From positions 1 to 63,694 of the forward strand of contig JAFVCV010000010.1 in assembly GCA_017478965.1 (NCBI GenBank): DNA of 63,694 nt. Reading direction: 5' to 3'. Position numbers and translations under genes: made by a program. This document shows positions 34,786 to 63,334 of this stretch, one piece after another (within the stretch, counting starts at the first letter, position 1; each line of letters begins with the position of its first letter). The notes below the pieces were generated by a model, which saw only the letters and a list, made by a program, of their open reading frames with translations, made no database searches and was not told where the DNA came from. Source of the stretch: Ruminococcus sp. (GTDB taxonomy: Bacteria; Bacillota; Clostridia; Oscillospirales; Ruminococcaceae).

Positions 34786-34814
34786 TTGACATGGGTGGAA
34801 GAATGTGCTATATT
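34786..34814 (+). promoter_or_regulatory. Promoter of the DUF2997-AAA-DUF1257 operon
   Basis: Consensus TTGACA (34786-34791), 17-bp spacer, TATATT (34809-34814). RNA should start near 34821, about 30 nt before the first ATG. One strong constitutive-looking promoter appears to serve all five genes. Confidence 0.85.
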
Positions 34815-34852
34815 TATATATAATGTGAAAAATTTTTTAAGGAGTGTTTTCT

Positions 34853-35056
34853 ATGGCTAAACTGAAGATCCGCATATATCCTGACGGTACGATAAAGGCC
34901 GAGACTATAGGGGTCAAGGGGAAGGAATGTACCAAGTATATCCCCATCATTGAGCAGCTGACCAATGCTGTCACCGATGATTCCGAGTTCACAAAGGATT
35001 TCTATAACAACGAGCAGGACCTGGTCAATGAGGACGTTCAGGAGGTCAAGCTTTAA
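34853..35056 (+). CDS. DUF2997 family small protein
   Basis: 67-aa protein whose first half, KLKIRIYPDGTIKAETIGVKGKEC, split as a beta hairpin with the conserved G-KGK-C signature, matches DUF2997. The second half extends the usual short family with an acidic helix (DDSEFTKDFYNNEQDLVNEDV). AAGGAG (34839-34844) places the start at the ATG at 34853. The stop shares one base with the next start. DUF2997 genes commonly sit beside DUF1257/Ycf35 and Ycf46-like ATPase genes, as here. Molecular role unknown; the conserved Cys could be a modification or metal-binding site. Confidence 0.8.
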   Translation: MAKLKIRIYPDGTIKAETIGVKGKECTKYIPIIEQLTNAVTDDSEFTKDFYNNEQDLVNEDVQEVKL

Positions 35057-35928
35057 TGGCGAATATGTACAACAAGAGCGCCGGGTGGAGGTTCGCCAAT
35101 TCTCTGATGTTCATATTTTTCCTCTTCCCATGGTGCTTTCCGTGGCCGTTCATAATCATGGCCGGCAAGACCCAGAACAAGAAGTACAGAAGGCTTGGCT
35201 ATGTCTACTTCTTCTTGGGCACAGCGACACTTATAAGCTGGTTCGCCCTTGTCACAGTGGAGACTGACTCTCCGGAATTAAGGGAGACGTGGGCTGTTCT
35301 GGTCTGGATCCTGGCTATCCTTATCCATATCTTTGCCATGGCCCAGGCGGTCATTCTCCACAACTCGTATCTTACCGAGCTGGCAGATATCGAGAGCGGC
35401 GGGAACTATAACAACATGAATGACAGGGGCCTGGGCATTTACGGACAGCAGGCCACGGGGAACGGCTATGTGCCTCCCGCACAGGGACCGTATCCGGGCC
35501 AGTATCAGAGCATTCAGCCCGTCCGGCAGAATATGGGCGCTCCTGTGACACAGGGCGTAAGGCAGAACGTCCCCGTCCAGCCAAAGGCAGCGCTCAGCAA
35601 GGCCCCTGCTTTTCCGGCAGGGAACGCCATGGGGAGAGGAGCCGCCGGTGCGGCAGTCTACCAGGGCCCGAAGCTCAATATCAATACCGCCTCTGAGGAA
35701 GAGCTGGCGGCTCTTCCGGGACTGAATATCATCGACGCCAAGAAGGCCGGTGAGTACAGGAACTATCATGGGGATTTCAACAGTGTGGAGCAGTTCATCT
35801 CTCTGCTCAACCTCAAACCCCATATCGCCGCACCCCTCTTTGATATCCTGTACTGCACGCCCTCTGCCCCCGGTCAGGCGCCCGGCGCTGCCGCTCCTAA
35901 CCCCGGCAGAAGAAAGATCGACCTCTGA
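35056..35928 (+). CDS. Membrane protein with C-terminal helix-hairpin-helix
   Basis: 290-aa protein. Three hydrophobic segments occupy residues 15-115 (FIFFLFPWCFPWPFIIMAG, YVYFFLGTATLISWFALVTV, VLVWILAILIHIFAMAQAVI). A Gln/Pro/Gly-rich linker of about 95 residues follows, then a ComEA-like helix-hairpin-helix unit (LNINTASEEELAALPGLNI, then AKKAGEYRNYHGDFNSVEQF) and an Ala/Pro tail. In ComEA-type proteins this unit binds DNA, but in membrane proteins of this kind it may bind protein. One-base overlaps with both neighbours show tight coupling, so the protein probably tethers the operon's system to the membrane. Confidence 0.82.
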   Translation: MANMYNKSAGWRFANSLMFIFFLFPWCFPWPFIIMAGKTQNKKYRRLGYVYFFLGTATLISWFALVTVETDSPELRETWAVLVWILAILIHIFAMAQAVILHNSYLTELADIESGGNYNNMNDRGLGIYGQQATGNGYVPPAQGPYPGQYQSIQPVRQNMGAPVTQGVRQNVPVQPKAALSKAPAFPAGNAMGRGAAGAAVYQGPKLNINTASEEELAALPGLNIIDAKKAGEYRNYHGDFNSVEQFISLLNLKPHIAAPLFDILYCTPSAPGQAPGAAAPNPGRRKIDL

Positions 35929-36539
35929 TGAGGGTACACCGGCTTCTGGAGCATACCCGGGCGGAAGGACCCGGCGTAAGGCTCTGTATATGGGTACAGG
36001 GCTGCCGGCGGCACTGCGAGGGGTGCTTTGCGGCCGATACCTGGGATCCGGACGGCGGCTGTGAAATGACCGTCGGGGAGATAACGCAGCGCATAAGAAA
36101 GGTCAGGGACAGTATCGACGGGATCACATTCCTTGGGGGCGAACCGTTCGAGCAGGCCGGAGAGGCCGCAGAGGTCTGTGCCGCAGCAAGGGGATATGGG
36201 CTGAGCGTGATAGTCTTCACCGGCGGGACCTATGAGAGCCTTGAACAGGAGTACGGCAGCGGCGCCAGGGCCTTGCTCGATAATACGGACCTTCTCATCG
36301 ACGGGCAGTTCGCTGTGGAAAAGAGAGATCTTTCCCGCCCCCTGGTGGGGTCGCTGAACCAGCGTTTCATTTTTCTTACCGACCGTATAGGCATGGAGAA
36401 GATAGAAAGCTATAAAAACCGTTTCGAGGTCAGGATAAGCCCTGAGGGCACTGTGACCGTCAACGGCATGGGTGATCTGGAGGAGCTGAAAAGGCGGCTC
36501 ATAGCCGGCGGAAACGATGAAAATGATATCAGGTACTGA
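35928..36539 (+). CDS. NrdG-like radical SAM activating protein
   Basis: 203-aa 4Fe-4S radical SAM protein. The cluster motif is C26-x3-C30-x2-C33 (WVQGCRRHCEGCF), followed by TFLGGEPFEQ (SAM-binding GGEP motif) and VIVFTGGTYESLEQEY, as in activases of the NrdG type. No glycyl-radical enzyme (NrdD or PFL) is adjacent; instead it is locked into an operon with an AAA+ ATPase, DUF2997 and DUF1257. That suggests the activity is directed at one of those proteins, for example a radical-based modification of the small DUF2997 protein, but this is inference. One-base overlap with the upstream gene. Confidence 0.85.
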   Translation: MRVHRLLEHTRAEGPGVRLCIWVQGCRRHCEGCFAADTWDPDGGCEMTVGEITQRIRKVRDSIDGITFLGGEPFEQAGEAAEVCAAARGYGLSVIVFTGGTYESLEQEYGSGARALLDNTDLLIDGQFAVEKRDLSRPLVGSLNQRFIFLTDRIGMEKIESYKNRFEVRISPEGTVTVNGMGDLEELKRRLIAGGNDENDIRY

Positions 36540-36570
36540 AAGGTGCCGTTGCTGAAAGGAAGAATGCAAG

Positions 36571-38214
36571 ATGGAAAACGAGACTATGAAGTTCATACAT
36601 GACTTCGCTGATCTGATAAACGCAGGTTTTGCCTGCCTGTATATTGATTCCTACGAAGAGGACAGGGTCATGCAGCAGATAAATGTGGCCGCCTCAAACC
36701 CTGATTTTGTAAAGGTCAGCAGAAAGGTCTACACCTGGGCCCAGACCACCGGGCTGGTAGGTCCGGACAAGATCGTTCCCAACACTCAGGAGGCCGTCAA
36801 GGCCCTGGATTTCATCGAGAAGAACAGCGAGAACGGCATTTTCGTTCTGAAGGACTTCCATATCTACTTCGGCGGTGACAGGGGAACAAGGCCTGACTAC
36901 GGCCTGATAAGGAAGATAAGGGACATTATCCCCGTCATGAAGGCGAACCGCAAGTCCATAGTCTTCCTTTCGCCCAAGCTGGTCATTCCCTGTGAGCTGG
37001 AGAAGGAGATATCCATACTTGACTTTGATCTTCCCACCGAGCAGGAGATAGAAGCCACCCTGGATAACCTTATGTTAGGACTCAGCCCCGACAAGATAAA
37101 GCTCACACAGGCTGAGAAAAAACAGCTGGTCGCTGCTGCCCTGGGTCTTACTCTTCAGGAAGCTGAAAATGCGTTCAGCCGTGCCATCGTCAAGAACAAG
37201 GGCCTTGATACCGGGGCCATCAACGTGGTCCATGACGAAAAGAACCAGACCGTCAAGAAGACCGGGGTGCTGGAATTCGTCAGGTCGGATCTGAGCATAG
37301 ACGATATAGGCGGACTGGAGAATATGAAGAAATGGCTCCTGCGCCGCAACAATACCTGGTCCGAAAGGGCAAAGCATTACGACCTGCCGGCCCCCAAGGG
37401 CGTCCTCATCACCGGCGTGCCGGGCTGCGGAAAGTCACTGACCGCCAAGGCCATGAGCGCCATCTGGCATCTGCCTTTGCTGAAGCTGGATATGGGAAAG
37501 ATATTCGACGGCCTTGTGGGAAGCTCTGAGGAGAATATGAGAAAGGCCCTTGATACCGCCGAGGCCGTTGCGCCCTGCATACTCTGGGTGGACGAGATAG
37601 AGAAGGGCTTCTCCGGCGCCCGTGGCGGCGGGGGAGACTCAGGCACGACTTCCAGAGTTTTCGGCACATTCCTTACATGGATGCAGGAGAAGACCAAGGC
37701 TGTCTTTGTCATCGCCACCGCCAACGATATCAGCGCACTTCCGCCGGAGCTTCTGAGAAAGGGCCGTTTCGACGAGATATTCTTTACGGACCTGCCTACA
37801 AAGAAGGAGAGGGAGAAGATATTCGAGCTGCATATCAACAAGCGTATCAGGAATTCCGATATAATCCACGATATCAAGGTCGATGATGCTCTGCTCTCGA
37901 CCCTGGCCGATATGTCAAAGGGCTATGTGGGCGCTGAGATAGAGCAGATAGTCATTTCCGCACTCTATGAGGCCTTCTATAACCAGAGGGGACTTATGGC
38001 CGAGGACCTGGTGAAGGCGATCAAAGCCACCGTTCCCCTTTCCGCTACCCAGAAGGAGCAGATACTGGCTCTCAGGAGCTGGGCGCAGGAGAGGGCAGTA
38101 CTTGCCACCTCTCCGGAAGACAGGGAGACTGTTATGTACGACGACGGCACCTCAGGCGACGATACGGATTTCAGGGAAAGACAGGGCGGCCGTATCCTGG
38201 ACTTCGACCTGTGA
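36571..38214 (+). CDS. Ycf46-like AAA+ ATPase
   Basis: 547-aa ATPase. The N-terminal ~230 residues are the conserved Ycf46-type domain, itself shaped like a degenerate P-loop/ATPase domain ([43 protein letters not shown]). The AAA+ module follows: [15 protein letters not shown], Walker A GVPGCGKS, Walker [12 protein letters not shown], sensor 1 [10 protein letters not shown], arginine finger region [11 protein letters not shown], and the lid [16 protein letters not shown]. In chloroplasts and cyanobacteria Ycf46 has been linked to photosynthetic control; in non-photosynthetic Clostridia that role cannot hold. A ring-forming unfoldase/remodeller is expected. AAGGAAG precedes the ATG. Confidence 0.92.
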
Positions 38215-38251
38215 TCCTGGGGCCTTACAGCAAACGAAAGGAGCTTTCTTT

Positions 38252-38746
38252 ATGTCACTGATACTTTCACTTACCTCCGCCGTTGTGCTCATAGGCGCAT
38301 CGGTGACTTCCCTGGCGTCGCTGACGGCTATAGAGACAGCAGGGGAGAAGACCAGGGGGGCAGGACCCCTCCAGCCTCAGATACAGCTGACCACCTTAAA
38401 GACCGTGTTCGTTGACAAGGACCTGCTCATCGAGACTTTGCAGGCTCACGGCAGCTGTGTCAGCAATATCAACGTAGTTTCTGAGAACGAGATAATAGTC
38501 ATGACCGAGTGCGGTCCGCTGAGATATGTCCGCCCTGACAATACCCAGGCCTTCGATTTGGAGCTTGGCCGGGTGGAGGACCCGCAGAAACTCATCCAGC
38601 AGCTGAAGTCCTTCGAGGAGGAATACGGCCGCAATGTGCAGACCTACACCTACGATCACATCAAGGAGAACCTGTCCGGGAATATGAAGATAGAGGAGGA
38701 AGAGGTCCTGGAGGACGACTCTCTCCTGCTGACTATCGACATCTGA
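38252..38746 (+). CDS. DUF1257 (Ycf35-like) protein
   Basis: 164-aa protein. After a short N-terminal hydrophobic segment (LILSLTSAVVLIGASVTSLASL) comes a DUF1257-like domain: KTVFVDKDLLIETLQAHG, YVRPDNTQAFDLELGRVEDP and the helix-strand end EEYGRNVQTYTYDHIKEN. The initial hydrophobic segment is not found in typical Ycf35, so this copy may be membrane-attached, matching the membrane protein earlier in the operon. The ATG at 38252 has AAAGGAG (38237-38243); an upstream opening at 38102 overlaps the ATPase gene and is rejected. Last gene before a strong terminator. Confidence 0.8.
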   Translation: MSLILSLTSAVVLIGASVTSLASLTAIETAGEKTRGAGPLQPQIQLTTLKTVFVDKDLLIETLQAHGSCVSNINVVSENEIIVMTECGPLRYVRPDNTQAFDLELGRVEDPQKLIQQLKSFEEEYGRNVQTYTYDHIKENLSGNMKIEEEEVLEDDSLLLTIDI

Positions 38747-38756
38747 CAGCACATAT

Positions 38757-38796
38757 GAAAATGGCCTTTCCTCAAAGGGGGAAAGGCCATTTTTTC
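38757..38796. terminator. Terminator of the DUF1257 operon, shared with the opposing gene
   Basis: AAAATGGCCTTTC pairs with GAAAGGCCATTTT (13-bp stem), TTTTTT following on the plus strand; it overlaps the end of the convergent ligase gene. Confidence 0.9.
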
Positions 38797-40690
38797 ATAC
38801 CTTCTTTTTTTCCGATACTGCCGACCAGGCCGCTCCGAACAGCACCCAGAACACCGGGCTCACACAGGGATAGCTGTCGTTTGAGATACCCACAGCCATG
38901 AAGGCTATGACCGAAACATAAAGCCCCAGCCGCAGGTGCAGGCTCCCGTCCTTCACAGGACAGAGCACACAGCTTCTGAAGCCCCTCACCAGGAATATCC
39001 CCAGCAGGATAAGCACCGCACACAGCGACAGGACCCCCGAATCCGCAGCGATGCCAAGATACCAGCTGTGGGGCTTGTTAACTACCATGGCCGGGGTCTT
39101 GTAGACCTCCAGCAGGCTCACAAGATCGTACTGCGGGAAGACCGTGACGAAGTTGCCGCTGCCGACGCCGATGAAAAGACACTTGTCGATGAATGACAGC
39201 GTGCTCCCCCAGATGAACCCACGGCCTGTGGCCATGTTCAGCCTGGTGCGGAAAAATTCCGGTCCGCTGTAGGAATTGATCTTCTCCATCGTGTAGCTGC
39301 CGTGGACGAAGGGCCGGAACCTCCCCCCGCTTACGTCAAAGATGAGCTTTGCCTTGTAGCCAAGCTCGCAGTAGAGCCTGTCGCTCACACTGAGCTTAAA
39401 GCTCAGGTTTTTCAGCCCCGGTTCTTTGAAGAAGGTGTAACCGTCTTTTTCGTAAGTCTCCAGCTCCCTGCCGGAAACGTCGAAATAGCTCACCTCCGTC
39501 AGCCCCGTGCCGTCATCCTCCGCCCGGACCCTTACGGTGCTGCCGGCATGGTCCGTCATGATTAGCTCGTTTTTCTCCGCCCTGACGTCGGCTAAAACAA
39601 AGTGGTCCCGGCTGAGTTTTTCCAGCCTTTCCTCTCGGGTGAGCTTTTCTGAGCCGCCGTTCTCCAGTACCGTCCGGACCCTGTCTCTCACGGCTCCGTC
39701 GCTAAGAGCAGCCCCCAGGCCGATAACTGCCGCAGCTGCGATGACGCCGAAGGCCGCCGCAGCCTTTTTCCTGTTCACAAGGCCCCTTGCTATGTAAATG
39801 ATATAGACGACAGCGAGCATTGCCCCGCCGCCGATGACAGAATAAAGTCCCCCGGAGGAGTTTGATAGGACCGCCCCGCAGGCAATGAGCGCCGCCGCAA
39901 AAAGTCCCATCAGCTTTGGCCCTATCTCTTTGCAGCCCAGAGCCCCCGCCGCAGTCACCGGGAACATCAGAGCGCAGAACCCCCCGAAATAGTTCGAGTT
40001 GAAGAAGGTTATGTGAACGTTGCTGCTGGTGCTGTGAAGGCTCCTTGCCGCAGCAAGATGCTCGCTGTCCGACATCAGCCTTGCCATCAGCTCAGTCTCC
40101 TGCAGCGGATAGCCAAAGAATTCCATCACTCCCCAGAACCCGGCGAACAGACTGAGTATCAGTACCGCATAGGTCAGCAGGTCCCGGCTATTTTGCTTGG
40201 TAAAGAAATTCACCGCCGCCAGAAACAGCATCAGGTAAGCCGTAACACCCAGCAGCCCCTCATACTGCTTTAACATTCCCAGCAGCACCGCTTCCTTGTG
40301 CTTTGCTGCCAGGCCTGATATGATGAGAAGTACCCAGTAGATCCCGCAAAGGATCAGCGCCGGACGGTTGCTTTTTTCCAGCAGAGGGATGCGCCCCCTG
40401 CTTTTTCCGGTCAGCACCTCCGCTAAGATCAGCGCCGATACTGTCAGTCCGCAGACTATGCAGGCTATCTCCTTATAGTAAAGGAACCAGTCCGTTATAT
40501 ACCCCGATGAAGAGGAAAAGTATTTCGCTGTAAGCTCTGTCAGAGGCTCCTCGTGGTATCTGCTTATAAACGGCAGACAGATCATGAATATGCAGAGCAC
40601 CGCCGCTCCGGCTCCTCTTATTATTTTTGGGACGTCTGCCCGCTTTCTTATTTTTTTCTCCGCCGCCCCGGCCTTAGTCTCTGTTTCCAC
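38795..40690 (-). CDS. O-antigen ligase/polymerase-like membrane protein
   Basis: 631-aa polytopic protein with about 10-12 helices and one large extracytoplasmic domain (about residues 335-505). The Wzy/WaaL pattern is in the C-terminal part: GRGFIWGSTLSFIDKCLFIG then VVNKPHSWYLGIAADSGVLSL, where the conserved His of KPHS(W)YL is essential in ligases. Gram-positive relatives attach or polymerise cell-surface glycans or teichuronic-like polymers. The start is GTG at 40690 with AGGAG 14 nt away, a long spacing, so the start is uncertain by a few codons. Flanked by its own promoter (40728-40756) and a terminator; no glycan cluster is adjacent. Confidence 0.85.
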   Translation of the reverse strand: METETKAGAAEKKIRKRADVPKIIRGAGAAVLCIFMICLPFISRYHEEPLTELTAKYFSSSSGYITDWFLYYKEIACIVCGLTVSALILAEVLTGKSRGRIPLLEKSNRPALILCGIYWVLLIISGLAAKHKEAVLLGMLKQYEGLLGVTAYLMLFLAAVNFFTKQNSRDLLTYAVLILSLFAGFWGVMEFFGYPLQETELMARLMSDSEHLAAARSLHSTSSNVHITFFNSNYFGGFCALMFPVTAAGALGCKEIGPKLMGLFAAALIACGAVLSNSSGGLYSVIGGGAMLAVVYIIYIARGLVNRKKAAAAFGVIAAAAVIGLGAALSDGAVRDRVRTVLENGGSEKLTREERLEKLSRDHFVLADVRAEKNELIMTDHAGSTVRVRAEDDGTGLTEVSYFDVSGRELETYEKDGYTFFKEPGLKNLSFKLSVSDRLYCELGYKAKLIFDVSGGRFRPFVHGSYTMEKINSYSGPEFFRTRLNMATGRGFIWGSTLSFIDKCLFIGVGSGNFVTVFPQYDLVSLLEVYKTPAMVVNKPHSWYLGIAADSGVLSLCAVLILLGIFLVRGFRSCVLCPVKDGSLHLRLGLYVSVIAFMAVGISNDSYPCVSPVFWVLFGAAWSAVSEKKKV

Positions 40691-54797: not shown

Positions 54798-54821
54798 TTG
54801 TACGAATTATTGTACGAACTA
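54798..54821. repeat. 12-bp tandem repeat at the integrase end of the element
   Basis: TTGTACGAATTA followed directly by TTGTACGAACTA, overlapping the integrase stop codon. A similar arrangement of two 12-mers occurs at the other end of the element (63462-63485). Candidate arm-type binding sites of the integrase. Confidence 0.55.
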
Positions 54822-55943
54822 CTCGACTTTTTTCAGCGCTGTCATCGCATTTCTCAGCGTACCGATGTCCTTGTGTATGTACACGTTCGCTGTGGTCTGG
54901 TAGTTTGCATGGCCGATGATCTTCTGCAGCTCGTCAGGCCGCATACCCGCTTCGGCTGAAAGGCTAGCAAAAGTGTGGCGGGTGCTGTGAGGAGTCAGGT
55001 GTCTGGGCTCGTTCATGTCCACAAGCCCCAGCTCGATAAGCGGCCCATAGAACACGTCCTCCCGGAACCTCGCACTTGTCATCTCAAACAGACGCCCGCC
55101 TTCCGACTCCGCTATCCACCCCTCCACAAAGCTCCTGATGAGCGGAATATTCGGCGGGAACGGCACCACTCGCCCACGGCCCGCCTCAGTCTTTTCGCCG
55201 CCGGTGATGTACCCCTCGTCAAGGTGGACATCGCTGACCCGGAGCTTCACCACCTCACCGATCCGGAACCCCATGTAGATCATGAACAGCACCGCCTGTA
55301 CCCGCCGGTCGTCTGTATGCTCCCAGAGAGTCTGGATCTCTTCGGCGGAGAAGATGCGCTTTTCCTTTTTTTCAAATTTCGGGATCTTGATGAACTCAGC
55401 GTAGTTTTTGTCGATGACATCGTTTTCCAGGGCGAACCTGCTGAGCAGGATCGCAAGTACCTTGAGGGTGCCGGCGGCAGACTTAGACCTGGCACCGTCA
55501 ACTATCTGCTGAAAGTCTACCGTCCGCAGGTCAGCCATTTTCCGACCATACAGCGGAGCGAATTTTTTGAACATGGAGGTATAAAGGTTGACCGCCGACT
55601 CCGAGACCGTTCTGTAGTGCGATCTTGACCACAGCCTGTAGATGTCCCCGAGGGTGGCATTGTAGAGCTCAGGCCGGCCGTTTATCATGTAGTCCTCCAA
55701 GGCCTTCTGAGCGCTGAGCAGGTCCGGGAATGAGCCGATGTACACCCTCCCGGCCCCGTTAGATGTCCCGGGCGCCCGGACAGTGTAGGGGTTCTTCCTG
55801 CACCGGGGGTCCTTGCTGATCGTACCCGAGCCGGCGGCCCTTTTGTGGGTCCTTGGCCGCTTGCCGGCCACTTGCTTTTTTCCGCAAAAACAACAAAAAA
55901 CGCTGCCATCGGGGATAACAGCGCTGCATTTTTTGCATTGCAT
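54819..55943 (-). CDS. int: Tyrosine site-specific recombinase (phage integrase)
   Basis: 374-aa integrase. It begins with a zinc ribbon (CKKC ... CCFC, residues 3-20), then a basic segment and an AP2-like arm-binding domain (NPYTVRAPG ... GRVYIGSFPDLLSAQKALED), the SAM-like core-binding domain (SAVNLYTSMFKKFAPLYGRK), and a catalytic domain with Arg in MGFRIGEVVKL, HSTRHTFASL, GHANYQTTANVYIH and Tyr nucleophile in the VYIH segment. All catalytic residues are present, so it should be active. AAGGAG precedes the ATG. It sits at the left edge of the element in the usual inward-reading position. No excisionase gene is recognised. Confidence 0.93.
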   Translation of the reverse strand: MQCKKCSAVIPDGSVFCCFCGKKQVAGKRPRTHKRAAGSGTISKDPRCRKNPYTVRAPGTSNGAGRVYIGSFPDLLSAQKALEDYMINGRPELYNATLGDIYRLWSRSHYRTVSESAVNLYTSMFKKFAPLYGRKMADLRTVDFQQIVDGARSKSAAGTLKVLAILLSRFALENDVIDKNYAEFIKIPKFEKKEKRIFSAEEIQTLWEHTDDRRVQAVLFMIYMGFRIGEVVKLRVSDVHLDEGYITGGEKTEAGRGRVVPFPPNIPLIRSFVEGWIAESEGGRLFEMTSARFREDVFYGPLIELGLVDMNEPRHLTPHSTRHTFASLSAEAGMRPDELQKIIGHANYQTTANVYIHKDIGTLRNAMTALKKVE

Positions 55944-55968
55944 AGTATCACTCCTTCAGATCTTTGCA

Positions 55969-55999
55969 CCGTCCTGCCTGCAAAGGCGTGGCAGGACGG
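55969..55999. other. Hairpin between integrase gene and small RNA promoter
   Basis: CCGTCCTGCC (55969-55978) and GGCAGGACGG (55990-55999), a 10-bp perfect stem with an 11-nt loop, just upstream of the integrase start. It could serve as integrase mRNA leader structure or a protein-binding site. Confidence 0.55.
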
Positions 56000-56008
56000 C
56001 GGTATAAC

Positions 56009-56037
56009 TTGACTTTTCGGGAAAACTATGCTATACT
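56009..56037 (+). promoter_or_regulatory. Promoter of the small RNA
   Basis: TTGACT (56009-56014), 17-bp spacer, TATACT (56032-56037). No protein gene lies downstream on this strand before a terminator. Confidence 0.8.
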
Positions 56038-56043
56038 ATACGT

Positions 56044-56112
56044 GCTAGGTTATGAGTATATCATAGCTCCTGCGTCCTCTGAGTGTTGCCGCACTCAGGG
56101 GGCGCTTTTTTA
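56044..56112 (+). ncRNA. Candidate phage-encoded small RNA
   Basis: A consensus promoter followed ~30 nt later by a strong Rho-independent terminator defines a transcript of about 70 nt with no room for a normal gene. The terminator is a 14-bp stem GCGTCCTCTGAGTG (56072-56085) with CACTCAGGGGGCGC (56092-56105), then TTTTTTATTTT. The unpaired 5' part (about 56044-56071) is CGTGCTAGGTTATGAGTATATCATAGCTCC-like, partly repetitive (GAGTATATCATAGCTC imperfect palindrome). It lies between two leftward genes (integrase and exonuclease) and is transcribed against them, so it may regulate either lysogeny or a host target. Confidence 0.6.
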
Positions 56113-56170
56113 TTTTCTCCCCGGGGAGACTAGAGCATATCCAGCACTGTGATGCTCAGCTCGCCGCCAA

Positions 56171-57280
56171 CTATCTTTGATTTATGTATTGTATCTCCGA
56201 TATTACCCTTATATCTTGCCCCTGCCTTTGCAGCTCTTTAGCATATTTGAACTTTTGCCCATAGTGCCTAAAACTCCAGTCGGGTGACAGGCAGCTGCCT
56301 ACTATAAGATAATTCGTTTTTTTAGTAACATTCTTTGATACCTTAGCACCCTGCCTCTCCAGTTCAAGGGTGATCTCAGCGGGAGAACCACACTTGAACT
56401 CACCCGTGAGCACGATATTTTTATTTGAAAGGTCGATTGGCGCCCCATTTTCTTGAAACAATGGCATACAGCAGGCTTCGATCCTACCGACTGCATTCTC
56501 TAGTTCTGCCCTGGGCTTGAAGAGCTCTGCTATTTCGTACACGGGGTAATCTTCAATGCAGTCGGGGTTGCTTTTAAGCCAGGCCCTGACTTTTTTAGTG
56601 TCGCTCTGCGTAAGCTCACCCTTGCTTGCTATGCCGACCAACAAATCATCAAGCTTGCGCAGCCGTTCTGTCTTTTCATTGATAGCTTCGGGAAAGCGCC
56701 TTATATCTTTAGGCGGGCTCACGTTAACGGGTGCGGGCTTGTATTTCGATCTGAGTTTCTCATAAATCGCCTGTGTGGCCTCGCAGTCTGAAAGAGCCCG
56801 GTGAGCTTTTTTGTTTTTGACCTTGAAGTGCTTGCAGACAGTTTCAAGCTTGTGGTCCTTGAGTGCGGGAAGGGCCTGCCTTGACATTTCAAGAGTGTCG
56901 ATAAGCTTGTTTTCAAAGGGGTATTGCAGCCTGGCGCAGGCCACAGCCAAGAACTGACTGTCAAAGTCTATTATGTTATGCCCGACAAGCCAAAAGTCGC
57001 CGATAAAGTTCAGCAATTCAGGCAAAACACAGTTTATGCTCGGAGCGTTTTCAAGGTCTGCCATAGTAATGCCCGTAAGCTCGGTAGTTTTTTGCGGCAG
57101 GCTCTTCGGGGGCTTTACCAGCTTATCAAACCTGTCAACTATAACAGAACCAACTACTTTTACAGCACCGATCTCAATTATATCGGCCTTGTTAGGGCTT
57201 AGGCCAGTGGTTTCAAGGTCGATGACAACATAATCCTCCCCTGCGGCCTTTCTTCCGAATAATCTGCTCAGAAGACCCAT
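56171..57280 (-). CDS. DEDDh exonuclease with BRCT domain
   Basis: 369-aa protein. An N-terminal DnaQ/Pol III epsilon-type 3'-5' exonuclease (residues 15-180) shows VVIDLETTGL (Asp21, Glu23), VGHNIIDFDSQFL and HRALSDCEATQAIYE. A central linker of ~90 residues with helices follows, and the C-terminus (about 284-369) is a BRCT domain (NIVLTGEFKCGSPAEITLEL, KTNYLIVGSCLSP). The same combination occurs in Firmicutes proteins of the DinG/epsilon type. Lying between the integrase and the repressor, on the lysogenic strand, it occupies the place where temperate phages carry accessory lysogeny genes. A repair or anti-phage role is inference. Confidence 0.85.
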   Translation of the reverse strand: MGLLSRLFGRKAAGEDYVVIDLETTGLSPNKADIIEIGAVKVVGSVIVDRFDKLVKPPKSLPQKTTELTGITMADLENAPSINCVLPELLNFIGDFWLVGHNIIDFDSQFLAVACARLQYPFENKLIDTLEMSRQALPALKDHKLETVCKHFKVKNKKAHRALSDCEATQAIYEKLRSKYKPAPVNVSPPKDIRRFPEAINEKTERLRKLDDLLVGIASKGELTQSDTKKVRAWLKSNPDCIEDYPVYEIAELFKPRAELENAVGRIEACCMPLFQENGAPIDLSNKNIVLTGEFKCGSPAEITLELERQGAKVSKNVTKKTNYLIVGSCLSPDWSFRHYGQKFKYAKELQRQGQDIRVISEIQYINQR

Positions 57281-57300
57281 AATCTACACCCCCTACGTTC

Positions 57301-58002
57301 TTATACCGCCTTGATAACGTTCTGGACCAGACCGACTATCCTGACTTCCGCAAGCTTTGCTCCTTCGATGGTACGTGGCGGATATTCTGGGTTTATAGAT
57401 ATGAGAGTAAGCCTGTTTTCTTCGTATTCTACACGTTTTACGACCGCTTCATCACCAATCATTACCACAGCTATCCTTCCGTTGTCAACGCTGTCCTGTT
57501 TGCGCACAACGATCTTGTCACCATTGCAGATGATGGGATACATACTCATTCCCTCGACCTCTATTATTATCGTTGCATCAACATCGTAATCGTTGCTGAT
57601 GAACAGCGGCATATACCCAATGATATCGCTGTTGGCATAGGCCCCAAATCCGGCAGCCACGCTGCCGAAGATAGGTATCATGTGGATCTTATCCGCCGGG
57701 GGGAAGCTGGCGTTTGCGTCAAGTTCGTCAACTGTTCTATCCGGATCGTTTTCATACCAGTCCGTTCTTTCACGGAAGTTACCCATTATGTCAGTTTTTA
57801 GTATGAGCCACTCTGGGTTGACATTTAGTTGCTTTGCCATAGCGTGTATAACAGGCAGCTTGATCTTTGCGATCTTTCCGGTTTCGTACCTCTGAATGGT
57901 TGATTTGTTGAGCCAGAGAAGGTTGCCAAGATCCTCCTGCGTCATGCCGAGCTCTTCACGCCTTTGCTTAATTCTTTTTCCTATTTCAATATTTCTCTCC
58001 AC
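57301..58002 (-). CDS. CI/LexA-type phage repressor (XRE + S24)
   Basis: 233-aa lysogeny repressor. HTH: GKRIKQRREELGMTQEDLGNLL, residues 8-60. The S24 peptidase domain contains the self-cleavage Ala-Gly (VAAGFG), the catalytic Ser in EVEGMSMYP and Lys in DEAVVKRVEY, so SOS-dependent self-cleavage through RecA is expected. Frame opens at GTG 58011, but the GTG at 58002 has GTAGGTG better placed; both give the same domain. The gene is divergent from the cro-like gene. Palindromes TTGCA-N3-TGCAA lie in between, one overlapping its own -35, suggesting autorepression. Confidence 0.92.
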   Translation of the reverse strand: MERNIEIGKRIKQRREELGMTQEDLGNLLWLNKSTIQRYETGKIAKIKLPVIHAMAKQLNVNPEWLILKTDIMGNFRERTDWYENDPDRTVDELDANASFPPADKIHMIPIFGSVAAGFGAYANSDIIGYMPLFISNDYDVDATIIIEVEGMSMYPIICNGDKIVVRKQDSVDNGRIAVVMIGDEAVVKRVEYEENRLTLISINPEYPPRTIEGAKLAEVRIVGLVQNVIKAV

Positions 58003-58028
58003 TATAATCACCTACTTTCTTTAGAAGT

Positions 58029-58057
58029 ATTATATCACAAATAATTGCAAAATGCAA
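58029..58057 (-). promoter_or_regulatory. Repressor promoter with operator
   Basis: Minus strand TTGCAT (58052-58057), 17-bp spacer, TATAAT (58029-58034). The -35 is inside operator TTGCAAAATGCAA (58045-58057). Confidence 0.7.
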
Positions 58058-58085
58058 TAGCTATTTTCAAAAAAAATAAAAAAAG

Positions 58086-58153
58086 TTGCGAAATGCTATT
58101 GACAAATCATAAATGATGTGCTATATTATGATGTAGAAAGTTGCATAATGCAA
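58086..58153 (+). promoter_or_regulatory. Rightward early promoter with flanking operators
   Basis: TTGACA (58099-58104), 17-bp spacer, TATATT (58122-58127). The half-conserved operator TTGCGAAATGCTA (58086-58098) abuts the -35, and the perfect TTGCATAATGCAA (58141-58153) lies about 12 bp past the RNA start. A fourth copy, TTGCAAAACGCAA (58386-58398), occurs right after the cro-like stop. Consensus TTGCR-WAA-YGCAA. Confidence 0.8.
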
Positions 58154-58177
58154 CAAAAAGAAAGGCGGGTGACTAAT

Positions 58178-58384
58178 ATGGTCAATACGAATAGGATCAA
58201 AGGCAGAATGAAAGAGCTGGAAATTACTCAGGCTGAAGTTGCAAGGTGTCTCGATATAGCCCAACCTACGGCCAATCAGAAGATCAATAATGTCCGGCCA
58301 TTCGACCTTGATGAGGCCGAAAAACTTGCACAGCTGCTTAGGATCGAACCTGGCGAATTTGGCCTGTATTTTTTTGCTCAGTAA
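58178..58384 (+). CDS. Cro-like small HTH regulator
   Basis: 68-aa XRE-type DNA-binding protein: NRIKGRMKELEITQAEVARC, then the recognition helix QPTANQKINNVRPFDL. The frame is open from 58118, but the ATG at 58178 has GGCGGGTG upstream and begins the domain correctly. First gene rightward of the divergent switch, so likely the lytic antagonist of the repressor, binding the same TTGCA-N3-TGCAA sites. Operator copies lie both before and directly after the gene. Confidence 0.87.
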   Translation: MVNTNRIKGRMKELEITQAEVARCLDIAQPTANQKINNVRPFDLDEAEKLAQLLRIEPGEFGLYFFAQ

Positions 58385-58425
58385 GTTGCAAAACGCAACC
58401 GAGGGCTAGAAAGGAGGAAACCCGA

Positions 58426-58590
58426 ATGAAAATGAAGAACTACATCGTAACACTCGGTGACTCGTGGGGCTCTATCAGAGTATACCGCATCTGTACTGCT
58501 ACACGGGCAGAGGCTTGCCATTTGGGGATCGAAAAAGCAAAAGCGGAAGAGTACGGCGACTGGTATGTTTCTTCTTGTAGGGAGGTGTGA
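58426..58590 (+). CDS. Small phage protein (54 aa)
   Basis: Begins MKMKNYIVTLGDSWGSIRVY and ends WYVSSCREV; soluble, one predicted alpha/beta unit, no family recognised. AAGGAGG (58411-58417) 8 nt before the ATG gives strong translational support, and the stop is 4 nt before the next start. It fits the pattern of short early phage genes; the segment ATRAEACHLGIEKAKAEEYG is like the amphipathic helix found in small phage helix-strand proteins of unknown role. Confidence 0.8.
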   Translation: MKMKNYIVTLGDSWGSIRVYRICTATRAEACHLGIEKAKAEEYGDWYVSSCREV

Positions 58591-58594
58591 AGCT

Positions 58595-58792
58595 ATGATG
58601 AAAGTCATCACTGTTAATCAGGCCTGCCGGATACTGGCTGAACACGGCCACAAGGTGACGCCGACCCACCTTGGTGCCGGTCTCCAGCAAGGGGTCTACC
58701 CCTTCGGCGTGGCCATTAAAATGACCCATTGGGTATACGAGATCTATGATGTCCTGCTGATGAAATGGATAGCAGAGAGGGAGGAGCCATGA
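58595..58792 (+). CDS. Small phage protein, possible DNA-binding (65 aa)
   Basis: Begins MMKVITVNQACRILAEHG and continues KVTPTHLGAGLQQGVYPFGV; the opening resembles the winged-helix/helix-turn-helix start (VNQACRILAEHG ... THLGAGLQQG) of excisionase- or MerR-like phage proteins that contact DNA. An excisionase role would fit, since no other xis is present, but this is only a shape resemblance. GGGAGGT (58580-58586) is its ribosome binding site. The next gene overlaps it by 4 nt. Confidence 0.78.
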   Translation: MMKVITVNQACRILAEHGHKVTPTHLGAGLQQGVYPFGVAIKMTHWVYEIYDVLLMKWIAEREEP

Positions 58793-59034
58793 AAAGACTG
58801 AGTTCAACGACCCTCGCCTGCATAGCGGGGACCAAATTTACCACGGAATGGCTGGCCTGCATTTTCATTGGCGGAGCTGTGGGGGCGGTGATTTTTTTCT
58901 ACGCACTGCTGGACCTGGCCCTGCTCATCGCCACTGCGCAGCTAGTACAAAACGAGCAGGCCCGGACCGAGCGTCAGCGGGCGATCAAAGAAGAGGCCAT
59001 CGAGACAAACCGCAGGAATACTTTGGGGGGCTGA
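58789..59034 (+). CDS. Small membrane protein of the phage element (81 aa)
   Basis: Has one or two hydrophobic helices (WLACIFIGGAVGAVIFFYALLDLALLIATAQLV region) and then a charged, helical, probably coiled tail (NEQARTERQRAIKEEAIETN). It starts in an ATGA overlap with the preceding gene and has GGGAGGAG upstream. It is like small hydrophobic phage proteins (holin-like or superinfection-exclusion), but the endolysin is 3.5 kb away, so a holin role is uncertain. Confidence 0.75.
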   Translation: MKRLSSTTLACIAGTKFTTEWLACIFIGGAVGAVIFFYALLDLALLIATAQLVQNEQARTERQRAIKEEAIETNRRNTLGG

Positions 59035-59436
59035 CGAAGTACAAATGGACACATTGCTGTTAATATTGGTCGTCGGCGGCCTGGCGGGCCTGCCGGGCCT
59101 GACGGGTCAGCTTACGGCGCCGGGGGATAATTATTTTAAATGGGGGCCTTGCCCCCATACCCCCACGGCCCAAAACTTTTGCGCCCTCTTGGGGCGGCGC
59201 TCCCGTTTGTCGCTCTGCCCCAAGAGGGCGCAAAAGCATTTGGGCCTGTCTGCCGGACCTGACGGGCGAGCAGATAAGCCAGAAACAAAACCAGTAAACC
59301 AAACCAGGCGCTGCGTTGGGGCAGAGAGAGCGCTGGGAGCAAAGCGACCAGAGCGAACGCCGCCCCAACGTTATAAAGCAGCGCCGGGGGGCTTGGGGGG
59401 CTGCGCCCCCCATTTAGAATAGAAAGGAGGGAAAGT
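59035..59436. repeat. Nested long inverted repeats (non-coding)
   Basis: 400 bp with several strong palindromes: GGGGGC-CTT-GCCCCC (59142-59156); GGCCCAAA (59168-59175) plus TTTTGCGCCCTCTTGGGGC (59177-59195) pairing with GCCCCAAGAGGGCGCAAAA (59217-59235) plus TTTGGGCC (59239-59246); GGCGCTG (59307-59313) and CGTTGGGGC (59314-59322) with GCCCCAACG (59362-59370) and CAGCGCC (59379-59385); and GGGGGGC/GCCCCCC (59395-59411). A frame of 125 codons runs through it (59045-59422) but without ribosome binding site; its protein is Pro/Gly/Arg-rich and depends on the repeats. I regard it as structured DNA/RNA or a decayed repeat insertion. Confidence 0.75.
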
Positions 59437-62112
59437 ATGAGCGAATTAAATATTGACAAACTCAGTATTGAAATAAATTCTTCTGCGGAGCAGGCGGCAT
59501 CAGGTATCGACAAGTTGATCGACCGTCTGAACAATCTTTCAAACGCTGTTCAGAACTGCAAGGGATTGACAAGGCTAAATAATCAACTCTCGAAAATAAA
59601 CGCCACTATAAGCACTATGACAGGTATGGCAAACCTTGAAAGGCTGATCACCGCCCTTGAAAAGCTGTCTAATCTGAAAGCGCCTAATATCACCAAGACT
59701 GTCAATGCCATCAATAAACTGACCGCAGCTATGCAGAATGCAGGGACTATCAGCGGTACTGACCAGCTGGCGGCAAATGTGCAGGCAGTTTCTGATGCTC
59801 TCAAGCCTATGGAGAACATGGGAAAGAACAATATGGCGGGTTTTCTTAAAAGCCTGCAAAAGATACCTGAGGTAACGGCCAGCCTTAACAGTCAGACCAT
59901 AGCAGAATTCGCCGCTAGGGTAAGAGAACTCACCAGCGCTCTTGAGCCTCTGCTTGACGCAGTATCACAGAACCAGGCCGGACTTGCCGCTCTTAACGGC
60001 GTCATGCAGCAGGCGGTAACTCATAACGGCAATCTTGCCGCAAGTAATGCCGTGACTATCCGAACATACACTTCGATATCGAAGGCATTGAAAAGTTTCA
60101 GAGTAAGGCTCCTTGCAGGGATATACGTTGTGAGAAGACTTGCGAACGTTATGTCGGACTGGCTGAAAGAGTCTAACGAATATGTTGAAAACCTGAACCT
60201 TTTCACGGTAACTATGGGCAAAGCCTCGAAAGCGGCTTTTGGATACGCTCAGACTGTCCATGATGCTCTTGGCATAGACGTCAGCGAATGGATAAGAAAT
60301 CAGGGCGTTTTCAAGCAGATCACCTCCGGTTTCGGAGTGGTCACTGAAAAAGCCGACCTGATGAGCAAGAACCTGACACAGATAGGCTACGACATCAGTT
60401 CATTCTTTAACATAGGAACAGAAGATGCTATGCAGAAGGTACAGAGCGGTATTGCAGGCGAACTTGAACCTCTGAGAAGGCTCGGATATGCTCTCGATAA
60501 GGCTACTTTGCAGCAGATAGCCTATGACAACGGTATTACCCAGAATATCAACACCATGACGCAGGCCCAGAAATCTCAGCTCAGATATATCGCTATCCTT
60601 CAGCAGAGTTCCAATGTCATGGGTGACATGGCCAGGACAGTAGTCACCCCGGCGAATGCTATGCGTATCCTGAAACAGCAGATCACTCAGCTGCACAGGG
60701 CGCTCGGAAACATCATCAGCGTATTTGCCACTAAGTTCATACCCTATGTGCAGGCGGCGATAAGGATATTGACAGAGCTTGCAGACAAACTGGCAGAGAA
60801 GTGGGGTTTCAGGCTGCCGGAGATAGACTATTCTTCCTTGGGCGACGGCATATCGGGACTTTCTGATGAAGCTGACGAAGCAGCGGAGAGCGTTCACGAC
60901 CTGGCAGAGGAAATATTCGGCCTTGCAGGGTTCGATGAGATAACTATACTGCCTTTCAAGGAGGACAGCTCCGGCTCAGGTACAGACGAATTAGGAAACC
61001 AGTTCGACCTTGGTATAGATCTGCCGGAGTATGATTTTTTGAAGGGGCTGGACACCAGTTCAGATGACATATATGAACGAATGAAGACGAAGGTCGATGA
61101 CCTTATCGAAGCTTTCACTCTGCTCAATAAGATAAGAGATGATTTCAAATATTTCAAGGATACAGGGGACTGGTATCCGCTGCTTACAGACCTTAATAAA
61201 TTTGTTGAAAAGACCTTCGGCAAGAAGTGGACAAGTATCTGGAACGATATAGGCGAAGCGATGTATGACGGCATCAATGACGGCGATTGGTATCCTCTTC
61301 TGGTCGCATCTGACGATCTTGTGAGATATCTGTTCGGCAGTCCATGGACAGATTTCTGGGAAAGTGTAGGAGAAAAGATGAACCAAGGCATAAAGGATGG
61401 CAATTGGTATCCTTTGTTAAAGTCTGCGGAAAATGGCGTCACTGTTCTGTTTGGCAAGCAGTGGACACAGAAATGGGAAACTGTAGGCAGGCAGATGTAC
61501 AAAGGCATACATGAAGGCGACTGGTATCCGTTTTTAAAAACTACAGAAGGAATGGTGTCCTTACTTTTCGGCTCTAGGTGGAAGACTTTCTGGGAGAGCG
61601 CCGGGGCAGGTATGTATGAGGCCTTTGAAAACCATAACTTTTACGGGCTGTTAGAAGAGTGGGAACAGTCGGTCCGTGCCTTGTTCGGCAGCCCATGGAC
61701 AGATTTCTGGGAGGGCGTAGGAGAGAGTATCTACAATGCTCTGCACCCCGGCGAAACAGACTACAGCATCTCGGTATCAAGCAGCGGAAAGACCCATGGG
61801 AATGCGACAGGCCGCTTCGCAGAAGGCGGATATCCTCAGAAATACCAGCTATTCATGGCCCGTGAAAACGGCATACCTGAAATGGTGGGCAGGATAGGCA
61901 GTCAGACTGCTGTGGCTAACAACGATCAGATAACCGCAGCTATAGCTTATGCCGTAAAGGCTGCTATCCTTGAAACAGGGCTGAACAGCAGAAACAACAA
62001 CGGCGAGGGCGGCGATATCAACGTTTATGTGGGGGGCAAAAAGTTCACAGACGTTATAATAGACGGCATCAATGACCGCACAGAAAAAAATGGCAAGTCG
62101 CCGCTCAGATAG
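59437..62112 (+). CDS. Phage tail tape-measure-like protein with internal 38-residue repeats
   Basis: 891-aa protein. The first ~160 residues are helical heptad-like (SEQAASGIDKLIDRLNNLS, LSKINATISTMTG), as in tape-measure proteins; around 215-400 comes the TMP core (RRLANVMSDWLKESNEYVENL, FGYAQTVHDALGIDVSEW, TQIGYDISSFFNIGTEDAM, ELEPLRRLGYALDKATLQ). From about residue 575 to 770 five copies of a ~38-residue unit appear: GDWYPLL ... LFGSPWTDFWESVGEKM ... GI-DG, spaced 38, 38, 39 and 41 residues. AAGGAGGG (59423-59430) precedes the ATG. Tape-measure genes normally lie amid ~20 structural genes, which are absent. Confidence 0.85.
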   Translation: MSELNIDKLSIEINSSAEQAASGIDKLIDRLNNLSNAVQNCKGLTRLNNQLSKINATISTMTGMANLERLITALEKLSNLKAPNITKTVNAINKLTAAMQNAGTISGTDQLAANVQAVSDALKPMENMGKNNMAGFLKSLQKIPEVTASLNSQTIAEFAARVRELTSALEPLLDAVSQNQAGLAALNGVMQQAVTHNGNLAASNAVTIRTYTSISKALKSFRVRLLAGIYVVRRLANVMSDWLKESNEYVENLNLFTVTMGKASKAAFGYAQTVHDALGIDVSEWIRNQGVFKQITSGFGVVTEKADLMSKNLTQIGYDISSFFNIGTEDAMQKVQSGIAGELEPLRRLGYALDKATLQQIAYDNGITQNINTMTQAQKSQLRYIAILQQSSNVMGDMARTVVTPANAMRILKQQITQLHRALGNIISVFATKFIPYVQAAIRILTELADKLAEKWGFRLPEIDYSSLGDGISGLSDEADEAAESVHDLAEEIFGLAGFDEITILPFKEDSSGSGTDELGNQFDLGIDLPEYDFLKGLDTSSDDIYERMKTKVDDLIEAFTLLNKIRDDFKYFKDTGDWYPLLTDLNKFVEKTFGKKWTSIWNDIGEAMYDGINDGDWYPLLVASDDLVRYLFGSPWTDFWESVGEKMNQGIKDGNWYPLLKSAENGVTVLFGKQWTQKWETVGRQMYKGIHEGDWYPFLKTTEGMVSLLFGSRWKTFWESAGAGMYEAFENHNFYGLLEEWEQSVRALFGSPWTDFWEGVGESIYNALHPGETDYSISVSSSGKTHGNATGRFAEGGYPQKYQLFMARENGIPEMVGRIGSQTAVANNDQITAAIAYAVKAAILETGLNSRNNNGEGGDINVYVGGKKFTDVIIDGINDRTEKNGKSPLR

Positions 62113-62123
62113 GGGGAGAAAAG

Positions 62124-62492
62124 ATGAAAGCTGAACTTTTATACTTTGACGGCGTGGAAATGCCTACTCCCTACTATTGCAGCTATGGCAACGAGAAGAT
62201 ATGGTCCAAGAATACAGGCCGTGGGTCTAACGGTCTGCTGGTGGGCGATATCGTTACTATCAAGAAAAAACTCATACTCAAGTGGCGGGGCCTTTCTCCT
62301 TCCGAGGTGGCTCTGCTAAACGAGTACATTACTAACATCAACAGACCGTTTTTCAATGTAAGTCTCCTTGACGAGACTTATAGATGGCAAAGCTACACGA
62401 TGTATGCGGGAACACCTGCATATGAAAGCTATAGCTGGAACGAAAAGTTCAAGTTCTGCAAAGAGATGAATGTCGATCTGATAGAACAGTGA
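62124..62492 (+). CDS. Small phage tail-type protein (DUF6711-like)
   Basis: 122-aa protein: ELLYFDGVEMPTPYYCSYGN, KKKLILKWRGLSPSEVALLN, DETYRWQSYTMYAG. Proteins of this shape lie directly downstream of tape-measure genes in Clostridia phages and are taken to be tail or distal-tail components. It starts 11 nt after the tape-measure stop, with GGGGGAG upstream. Function is inferred from location and general resemblance only. Confidence 0.72.
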   Translation: MKAELLYFDGVEMPTPYYCSYGNEKIWSKNTGRGSNGLLVGDIVTIKKKLILKWRGLSPSEVALLNEYITNINRPFFNVSLLDETYRWQSYTMYAGTPAYESYSWNEKFKFCKEMNVDLIEQ

Positions 62493-62530
62493 TCTATCAT
62501 AACAATATTTAGTATACAAGGAGGATCGAA

Positions 62531-63334
62531 ATGAAAGGAATCGACGTAAGTATGTGGCAGGGCGATATCGATTTCGCCAAGGTAAAGGGCGCCGGAGTTG
62601 AGTTTGTAATGATCCGGGCCAACAACTGGAATGGCGGTGACGTAAAGGACCCGTATTTTGAGCGCAACTACGCCGCCGCAAAGGCTGCGGGCCTTGCTGT
62701 CGGGGCCTACTACTACACCTGGCAGACCACTGTGAGCGGCGCGGCGGGCGATGCGATGAAGTGCCTGAATTACCTCAAGGGCAAGACCTTTGAGATGCCT
62801 ATTTACTACGATATGGAGTGGTACAAGGCCTTTGCCACGGGGCGGGCTAACGTGTCTGCTATGTGTACCAAATTCTGTACAGAACTTGAAAACGCGGGGT
62901 ACTTCGCGGGCATATACATCAGCCGCAGCCCCGCCCAAAGCTACCTGACAAGCGAGTGCGCTAACCGTTTCACCCTGTGGCTTGCCGAGTACGGCAGCAG
63001 GCTGAACTGGGGCGGGAATTACGGCATATGGCAGTACACCGACAAGGGCCGTGTCAGCGGCGTATCGGGGTATGTGGACATGGACATCTGCTATGTAGAT
63101 TATCCCTCCATCATCAAAAACGGCGGTTTCAACGGCTTCGGAGCGGCCCCGCAGGCTCCTGCAAAGCCGCAGGAAAGCAAGACCACGACCTACTACTACA
63201 CCGTGCGCAAGGGCGACACCCTGAGCGCCATAGCGGCGATGTTCGGGACGACCTATCAGAAGATCGCCGCAGATAACGGGATAAGAAATCCAAATCTTAT
63301 CTACGGGGGACAGAAATTGAAGATAGTGAAGTAA
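62531..63334 (+). CDS. GH25 endolysin with LysM domain
   Basis: 267-aa lysozyme (muramidase). GH25 domain 1-205: [20 protein letters not shown], the catalytic Asp and Glu in [22 protein letters not shown] and [21 protein letters not shown] Pro/Ala/Gln linker leads to a C-terminal LysM motif ([20 protein letters not shown], then [13 protein letters not shown]) that binds peptidoglycan. No signal peptide, as expected for a holin-dependent endolysin. AAGGAGG precedes the start. Related to but distinct from the GH25 at 40.8 kb. A good terminator follows. Confidence 0.95.

Follow-up and report, generated by a model that had tools for sequence, protein, structure and literature searches.

What could hold together, in one operon, a DUF2997 protein, a membrane protein with a C-terminal helix-hairpin-helix (HHH) domain, a radical SAM enzyme, an AAA+ ATPase and a DUF1257-like protein? 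The question is raised by a locus of Ruminococcus sp. (assembly GCA_017478965.1, contig JAFVCV010000010.1, positions 1 to 63,694; this stretch of 63,694 nucleotides is the window referred to below), in which the five genes follow one another on the + strand between 34786 and 38746. Neither a described function for the gene set nor a report of the peptide introduced here was found in the open-licence literature, as far as its accessible parts extend. An earlier note on this DNA proposed DUF2997, a small protein, as the substrate of the radical SAM enzyme, with the AAA+ ring remodelling or delivering it; the note missed a C-terminal peptide carried in common by two of the five proteins, a feature that changes the model.

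A common C-terminal peptide on the AAA+ and HHH proteins

The AAA+ protein (36571..38214) and the HHH protein (35056..35928) end in one peptide, R-x-[ILV]-[DE]-[hydrophobic]-COOH, newly found here and called the tag in what follows. In the window, the HHH protein terminates in GRRKIDL, with the tag RRKIDL-COOH encoded at 35908..35925, and the AAA+ protein terminates in GGRILDFDL, where two residues extend beyond the tag (GGRxLDF plus two, 38185..38211). An AAA alignment served as the seed for the comparison set, which comprises 80 loci from a public genome collection and 80 viral loci, in both cases those with the best AAA matches. The five families were called in these neighbourhoods with iterated hidden Markov models, and an AAA label in the resulting tables required 200 bits.

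The strict motif was set as R-x-[ILVF]-[DE]-[FLI] at the C-terminus, and a looser form relaxes the last residue. The counts for the window and the 80 genomic loci exclude L001, which duplicates the window locus, and L002-L015, which are short loci, plasmids and two phages. The strict tag is present on 51 of 66 complete HHH proteins and on 36 of 80 AAA proteins, figures that rise to 63/66 and 47/80 with the looser form, and it ends none of the radical SAM (0/52), DUF1257 (0/59) or DUF2997 (0/59) proteins. Among the other open reading frames (ORFs) of all loci, the background is 9/17,321 for the strict and 14/17,321 for the looser motif. Conservation over the last six residues averages 2.7 bits in the AAA family and 2.6 in the HHH family, as against means of 1.0 and 0.7 at residues -9 to -28, and at loci with AAA, HHH and radical SAM genes an arginine occupies position -5 in 46 of 51 AAA and 61 of 64 HHH proteins. 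Complete AAA and HHH pairs are found at 53 loci, with both members tagged at 43, one at 10 and neither at none; the window counts among the 10 because its AAA tag is two residues longer. Loci L001-L009 were left out of these pair counts, of the per-position conservation (Walker A included) and of the hydropathy counts given below.

Comparison of AAA tails with those of neighbouring proteins gave 36 similar pairs out of 1567 at p<0.003, where 4.7 were expected, and the neighbours were HHH proteins in 28 cases and other proteins in 8. When the last ten residues are removed, the window's AAA and HHH proteins yield no match to each other at E<=1, and by their sequences the two proteins appear to be otherwise unrelated. 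At locus L022 (2302-7344), seven HHH paralogues stand in tandem and each one ends in the tag. Presence of the tag on the AAA protein also varies with the company it keeps: the looser form occurs at 41 of 48 loci with both HHH and radical SAM genes versus 4 of 22 with neither, and at 0 of 6 with a radical SAM gene but no HHH gene. In the viral loci, the strict tag ends 5 of 78 AAA proteins, and the looser form ends the AAA protein at 4 of the 68 viral loci that have neither HHH nor radical SAM. A separate observation concerns L050 (5015-8549), where a tagged 926-residue protein, TPR-like by eye, and a tagged membrane protein with an Mrr-type nuclease domain, recognised by Pfam, adjoin the core genes.

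The operon, its proteins and its relatives

The earlier note had taken the five genes for one transcription unit on the strength of a consensus promoter, overlapping or near-contiguous genes and a common terminator, and each of these signals withstood closer analysis. A sigma-70-type promoter upstream of the DUF2997 gene (34786..34814, TTGACA-17-TATATT with a TG extension) agrees with the consensus at 11 of 12 positions; the region holds 6 promoter-like sites compared with 2.6 in shuffles, and therefore the best-scoring one alone was used. The genes for DUF2997 (34853..35056), HHH, radical SAM (35928..36539), AAA+ and DUF1257-like (38252..38746) proteins are all co-directional, with one-base overlaps at the first two junctions (DUF2997/HHH and HHH/radical SAM) and gaps of 31 and 37 bases at the next two. 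Beyond them, between convergent genes, lies an intrinsic terminator hairpin (38754..38799, + strand) of -27.2 kcal/mol (z -7.3), a folding energy equalled in 0 of 200 shuffles; this hairpin does not appear in the output of a simple terminator scan. Co-expression of the five genes as one unit is thus supported. Elsewhere in the window, positions 54819-63334 hold an integrase-like gene, a LexA-like repressor and a tape-measure-like protein (by eye), suggesting a prophage region away from the operon.

All five families are present at 43 of the 80 AAA-seeded genomic loci, in 12 gene orders and always on one strand, which argues against a chance cluster; the remaining loci include 9/80 with AAA, DUF1257 and DUF2997 only (the triad) and 14/80 with AAA only. 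The hosts comprise Clostridia, Gastranaerophilales, Bacilli, Actinomycetes, Bacteroidota, Planctomycetes and Armatimonadota, in line with the earlier note's view that the set recurs outside photosynthesis. Among the 80 viral loci, one has all five families, 15 the triad, 8 the triad with radical SAM, and 47 the AAA gene alone in the available stretch. Searches from DUF2997 give a sparser picture: 8 of the phylum's 398 genomes encode it (7 above cut-off), as do 2 of 61 relatives' genomes, the window's own included, and 1 of 29 within the genus. Of the eight DUF2997-seeded loci besides the window, five have an AAA gene in the stretch, accompanied in one case by a radical SAM gene, and none (0/8) has the five families together, two of the stretches being ended by contig ends. 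As AAA is common at these loci and the five-gene set absent, the five-gene operon is one branch of a wider AAA-DUF2997 system.

Some neighbourhoods merit mention in their own right. At some 23 to 33 of the 80 viral loci, L099, L104 and L107 among them, the AAA gene keeps one recurring set of neighbours, replication- or recombination-like by eye. One gene family recurs at ten viral loci (L100, L103, L106, L109, L123, L129, L130, L150, L156 and L159), and its L123 member, recognised by its tail, matches DUF3150 in Pfam. On a Treponema succinifaciens plasmid (L012, 2624-9593), a radical SAM-AAA pair lies between contractile-injection hub- or spike-like genes, one of them annotated as baseplate protein V.

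The radical SAM enzyme matches the Pfam family Fer4_12 at 116.9 bits and Radical_SAM at 29.3, just under the cut-off of 29.5. Its CX3CX2C and GGEP motifs are invariant across 53 aligned proteins (the window's included, from 58), which places it in the superfamily, and a pattern search found each motif in 66 of 68 radical SAM proteins. The best NCBIfam match is NrdG (TIGR02491), at 104.4-104.9 bits compared with a curated cut-off of 126.1, and the genome encodes two NrdGs of its own (182.4 and 142.3 bits), each adjoining a large NrdD (C5, C44). The CX3CX2C motif is common to NrdG and the operon enzyme; whereas NrdG adjoins NrdD, the operon enzyme keeps company with AAA, DUF1257 and DUF2997. The possibility that it is the cell's NrdG was therefore rejected, and with it the route by which the earlier note thought the operon might dissolve into a chance grouping.

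The AAA+ protein matches PF00004 at 100.8 bits and has Walker A and B, sensor and arginine residues, with invariant columns at G285, K288, D341, E342, N385, R396 and R399. Walker A was found in the second half of 166/166 full-length AAA relatives and in the first 180 residues of 0/166; the N-terminal half, without a P-loop, reads as a degenerate AAA domain ahead of a complete one. The DUF2997 protein (67 residues) scores 54.5 bits with PF11211, well above the gathering cut-off of 24.1. The fifth protein (164 residues, hydrophobic at its N-terminus) has no direct Pfam match at E<=1, DUF1257 (PF06868) included, and owes the name DUF1257-like to the 28 of 79 aligned homologues that do match that family. 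The DUF1257 and DUF2997 alignments, window included, hold 79 and 75 sequences, taken from 84 and 86 candidates besides the window's own. A structure model of the DUF1257-like protein (mean pLDDT 82.7) is confident over the folded part and resembles generic folds only.

Crude hydropathy over the families also bears out the earlier suggestion of two membrane-attached partners. The HHH protein (HHH_3, 46.5 bits) has hydrophobic N-terminal segments, and a hydrophobic N-terminus occurs in 40 of 49 DUF1257 proteins at loci with HHH and radical SAM, in 7 of 30 with neither and in 1 of 12 with radical SAM alone, a pattern consistent with a membrane-bound variant. DUF1257 and DUF2997 also occur as a single fused ORF (L215:7468-8136 and L216:7391-8059), in which Pfam recognises both domains (scanned in the L215 copy); the two ORFs are identical in genomes of different families, suggesting recent transfer. 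Further apparent fusions were noted by eye in L213 and L220, and at L220 the AAA protein ends in GRNIEF, a zinc-ribbon membrane protein in SRTIDL and the apparent fusion itself in NNIDL.

Proposed docking and sorting roles, and competing explanations

The explanation that we favour, with moderate confidence, is that the operon encodes a membrane-attached AAA+ machine built on an AAA-DUF1257-DUF2997 core, on which partners dock through the C-terminal tag with DUF1257 and DUF2997 serving as adaptor. The tag is read as a docking element because it is the conserved end of an otherwise variable tail, is borne by both motor and partner, and depends on lineage. The likeliest reader is the DUF1257-DUF2997 pair, since it is kept throughout the triad, is naturally fused in some genomes and is itself untagged in the 59 DUF1257 and 59 DUF2997 proteins counted. 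The two proteins would form one tag-binding adaptor, the AAA protein's own tag would occupy, or bridge to, the same adaptor site, and the ring would collect tagged partners, to remodel or release them at the cost of ATP. In the window the tagged partner would be the HHH protein, which together with the DUF1257 anchor may place the machine at the membrane, and the radical SAM enzyme might mature a component, Cys26 of DUF2997 being one candidate.

A broader proposal, advanced more tentatively, is that the lineage-specific C-terminal peptide constitutes a sorting code, read by AAA+-DUF1257-DUF2997, that marks unrelated proteins for one assembly; the motor would be marked as well, mark and reader would co-evolve, and the five-gene operon would be the membrane-bound version with a radical SAM enzyme. 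Phages with the AAA-DUF1257-DUF2997 core supply cases that bear on both proposals. Some of their loci have common tails of other kinds, SRA[AS]xLEL or SRAATLDL on three proteins of L128 and EFxDIE[LI] on two of L147. In a 209-kb phage record (G454), a pattern search of the whole record returned seven forward matches, all KR[IV]VE[LV] followed by a stop and all at the ends of open frames, with no match on the reverse strand and none for the control pattern; the pattern was written with knowledge of three of the seven genes, so that four are new. Two of the tagged products look, by eye, like a vWA and a SWIM protein; the other five are a YpsA/SLOG and a DUF3150 protein, one protein rich in Cys and two small proteins. 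Without their last ten residues the seven form only weak pairs (E 0.19 to 0.97). The AAA protein of this phage ends in TRVVES. In a second record (G456, 341 kb), a looser pattern was matched 18 times, versus 14 times for a control whose matches were not vetted for ORF ends, and hence the counts alone do not stand out; 8 of the 18 lie at the ends of open frames, 76 to 310 residues long, and have R-x-[IL]-E-[LI] tails, one of these ORFs being Lys/Pro-repeat-like, and addition of a WGR protein brings the tagged ORFs to nine.

The other phage records yield little. In G455, none of 13 pattern places besides a WGR-like protein has a gene-like end; G458 yields, among 10 places (10 for the control as well), a SWIM-like protein and an ORF of 228 residues that ends in RRSMDI and may not be real; in G460, G464 and G461 the pattern recovers only locus genes already found; and whole-record searches of G457 and G465 gave no tagged genes. 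Clear tagged genes away from the core are thus confined to 2 of 9 phage records (G454 and G456), a count that makes the sorting-code proposal less likely. Two plasmid-borne triads, L234 and L235, have no common tail among the genes read. From these triads it follows that the tag belongs to part of the family. A mycobacteriophage AAA protein has the tail KVRVLDL, and none of the 12 genes read there was recognised as a partner. Of the two plasmids, L234 (8860-11448) is an IncC plasmid from E. coli, with AAA, DUF1257-like and DUF2997 genes. L235 (3112-9619) is a cyanobacterial plasmid, from Geminocystis, and the setting of its triad is defence-like: by annotation, the genes around it include an ATPase-RloB pair, a zeta-toxin-like gene and a DUF4007 gene.

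The original model, in which the radical SAM enzyme modifies DUF2997, the AAA+ ring delivers the product and the tags are secondary, is now doubtful. In its favour is the GxxGxxC motif of DUF2997, with Cys26 invariant in 75/75 sequences and G12 and G23 nearly so. This cysteine is kept in 52/52 sequences with a radical SAM gene in the stretch and equally in 23/23 where no such gene was seen, so the motif is not specific to the radical SAM version, and the proposed modification stays hypothetical. The C-terminus of the radical SAM enzyme does resemble the start of DUF2997 (hhalign probability 63, P 6.9e-5, 19 columns; blastp of the window proteins, E 0.007 and 0.023), a weak sequence lead, but the likeness is short and may be convergent.

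Alternatively, the tag might be a degron or unfolding handle by which the AAA+ ring extracts or unfolds tagged proteins. AAA+ proteins often engage C-terminal peptides, and the second AAA domain retains its catalytic residues. Yet the AAA protein is itself tagged, the Pfam scan found no protease domain among the five operon proteins and FtsH models cover only the ATPase part of the AAA+ protein; we consider this explanation unlikely. A defence against phages or plasmids, with tagged effectors that can be exchanged, is comparably improbable. It would suit the patchy distribution (DUF2997 in one of the 29 genomes of the genus), the presence of AAA homologues on 60 phage and 713 plasmid records (593 of the plasmids being typed as conjugative), the tagged Mrr-type nuclease of L050 and a few strong defence matches among neighbours, such as MzaA and a DRT reverse transcriptase. 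Against it, a scan of 86 neighbours, drawn from 133 listed at 30 chosen loci with no more than five per locus, found 18 PADLOC families, 15 with one member and several generic, and the commonest neighbour Pfam families are transporters and other general genes; in PADLOC the five operon proteins give generic AAA and radical SAM matches only. The IetAS defence system was considered and rejected: IetA models match the AAA part only, and IetS is absent among the five proteins.

Last, that the radical SAM enzyme modifies the tags on the AAA and HHH proteins, as the excess of tagged AAA proteins at loci with HHH and radical SAM genes (41/48 versus 4/22) could suggest, is hard to reconcile with the lack of tagged AAA proteins where radical SAM is present and HHH absent (0/6) and with the phage records, of which 8 of 10 (possibly fragments) gave no radical SAM match in a whole-record search with a five-sequence model, five of them bearing tag-like tails (those of L174, L120, L121, L123 and L106), so that the tag seems independent of the radical SAM enzyme.

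Known systems and the reach of the tag

Short C-terminal tags read by a receptor or an AAA+ machine are familiar from ssrA, PTS1 (SKL) and the SSB tail. The operon tag is likewise a short peptide at the extreme C-terminus; unlike these, it is encoded in the gene of each protein, is found on the machine as well as its partners and varies with lineage.

Another parallel may lie in the MoxR-vWA ternary systems, where effector-associated domains (EADs) occur together with an AAA+ component of FtsH type (Kaur et al. 2020, eLife 52696). As far as the accessible part of that description extends, the two have in common an AAA+ protein whose first AAA domain is inactive and whose second is active; a radical SAM enzyme also belongs to some of the MoxR-vWA systems, and in them an adaptor is carried once by a core component and again by effectors. 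By analogy, the tag arrangement resembles this adaptor logic of conflict systems. The EAD is a domain, whereas the common element of the operon is a six-residue C-terminal peptide, and DUF1257, DUF2997 and the HHH protein were not found in the accessible part of the description (eLife 52696). Membership in the FtsH-type MoxR-vWA systems was rejected, as neither MoxR nor vWA is present among the five operon proteins, the only ones scanned, and a duplicated adaptor domain of EAD type was likewise rejected on the absence of any AAA-HHH match at E<=1 outside the last ten residues.

Cyanobacteria offer the other comparison, again from sources seen in part. In the cluster DUF2997-ycf35-fed7, DUF1257 (ycf35) adjoins DUF2997, as in the operon set (PMC7496141, PMC4284462). 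The cyanobacterial cluster has a ferredoxin and no radical SAM gene, whereas the window operon has a radical SAM gene, and the accessible descriptions mention no HHH partner or tag (PMC7496141, PMC4284462). Ycf46 (slr0374) belongs to a stress-responsive operon, and its inactivation is reported to lower EcaB carbonic anhydrase activity (PMC7496141). Ycf46 is at most a putative orthologue of the window's AAA+ protein, and the Ycf46 findings, as far as they are accessible, do not settle the operon's role.

Roles in defence, protein quality control and the envelope are all possible for the machine proposed here. DUF1257 and DUF2997 range from cyanobacteria to phages, plasmids and gut bacteria. If the docking interpretation is true, the use of a peptide instead of an adaptor domain would provide a cheap route to new effectors, and the tag would predict the partners of the machine, including those in phages, where most genes lack assigned roles.

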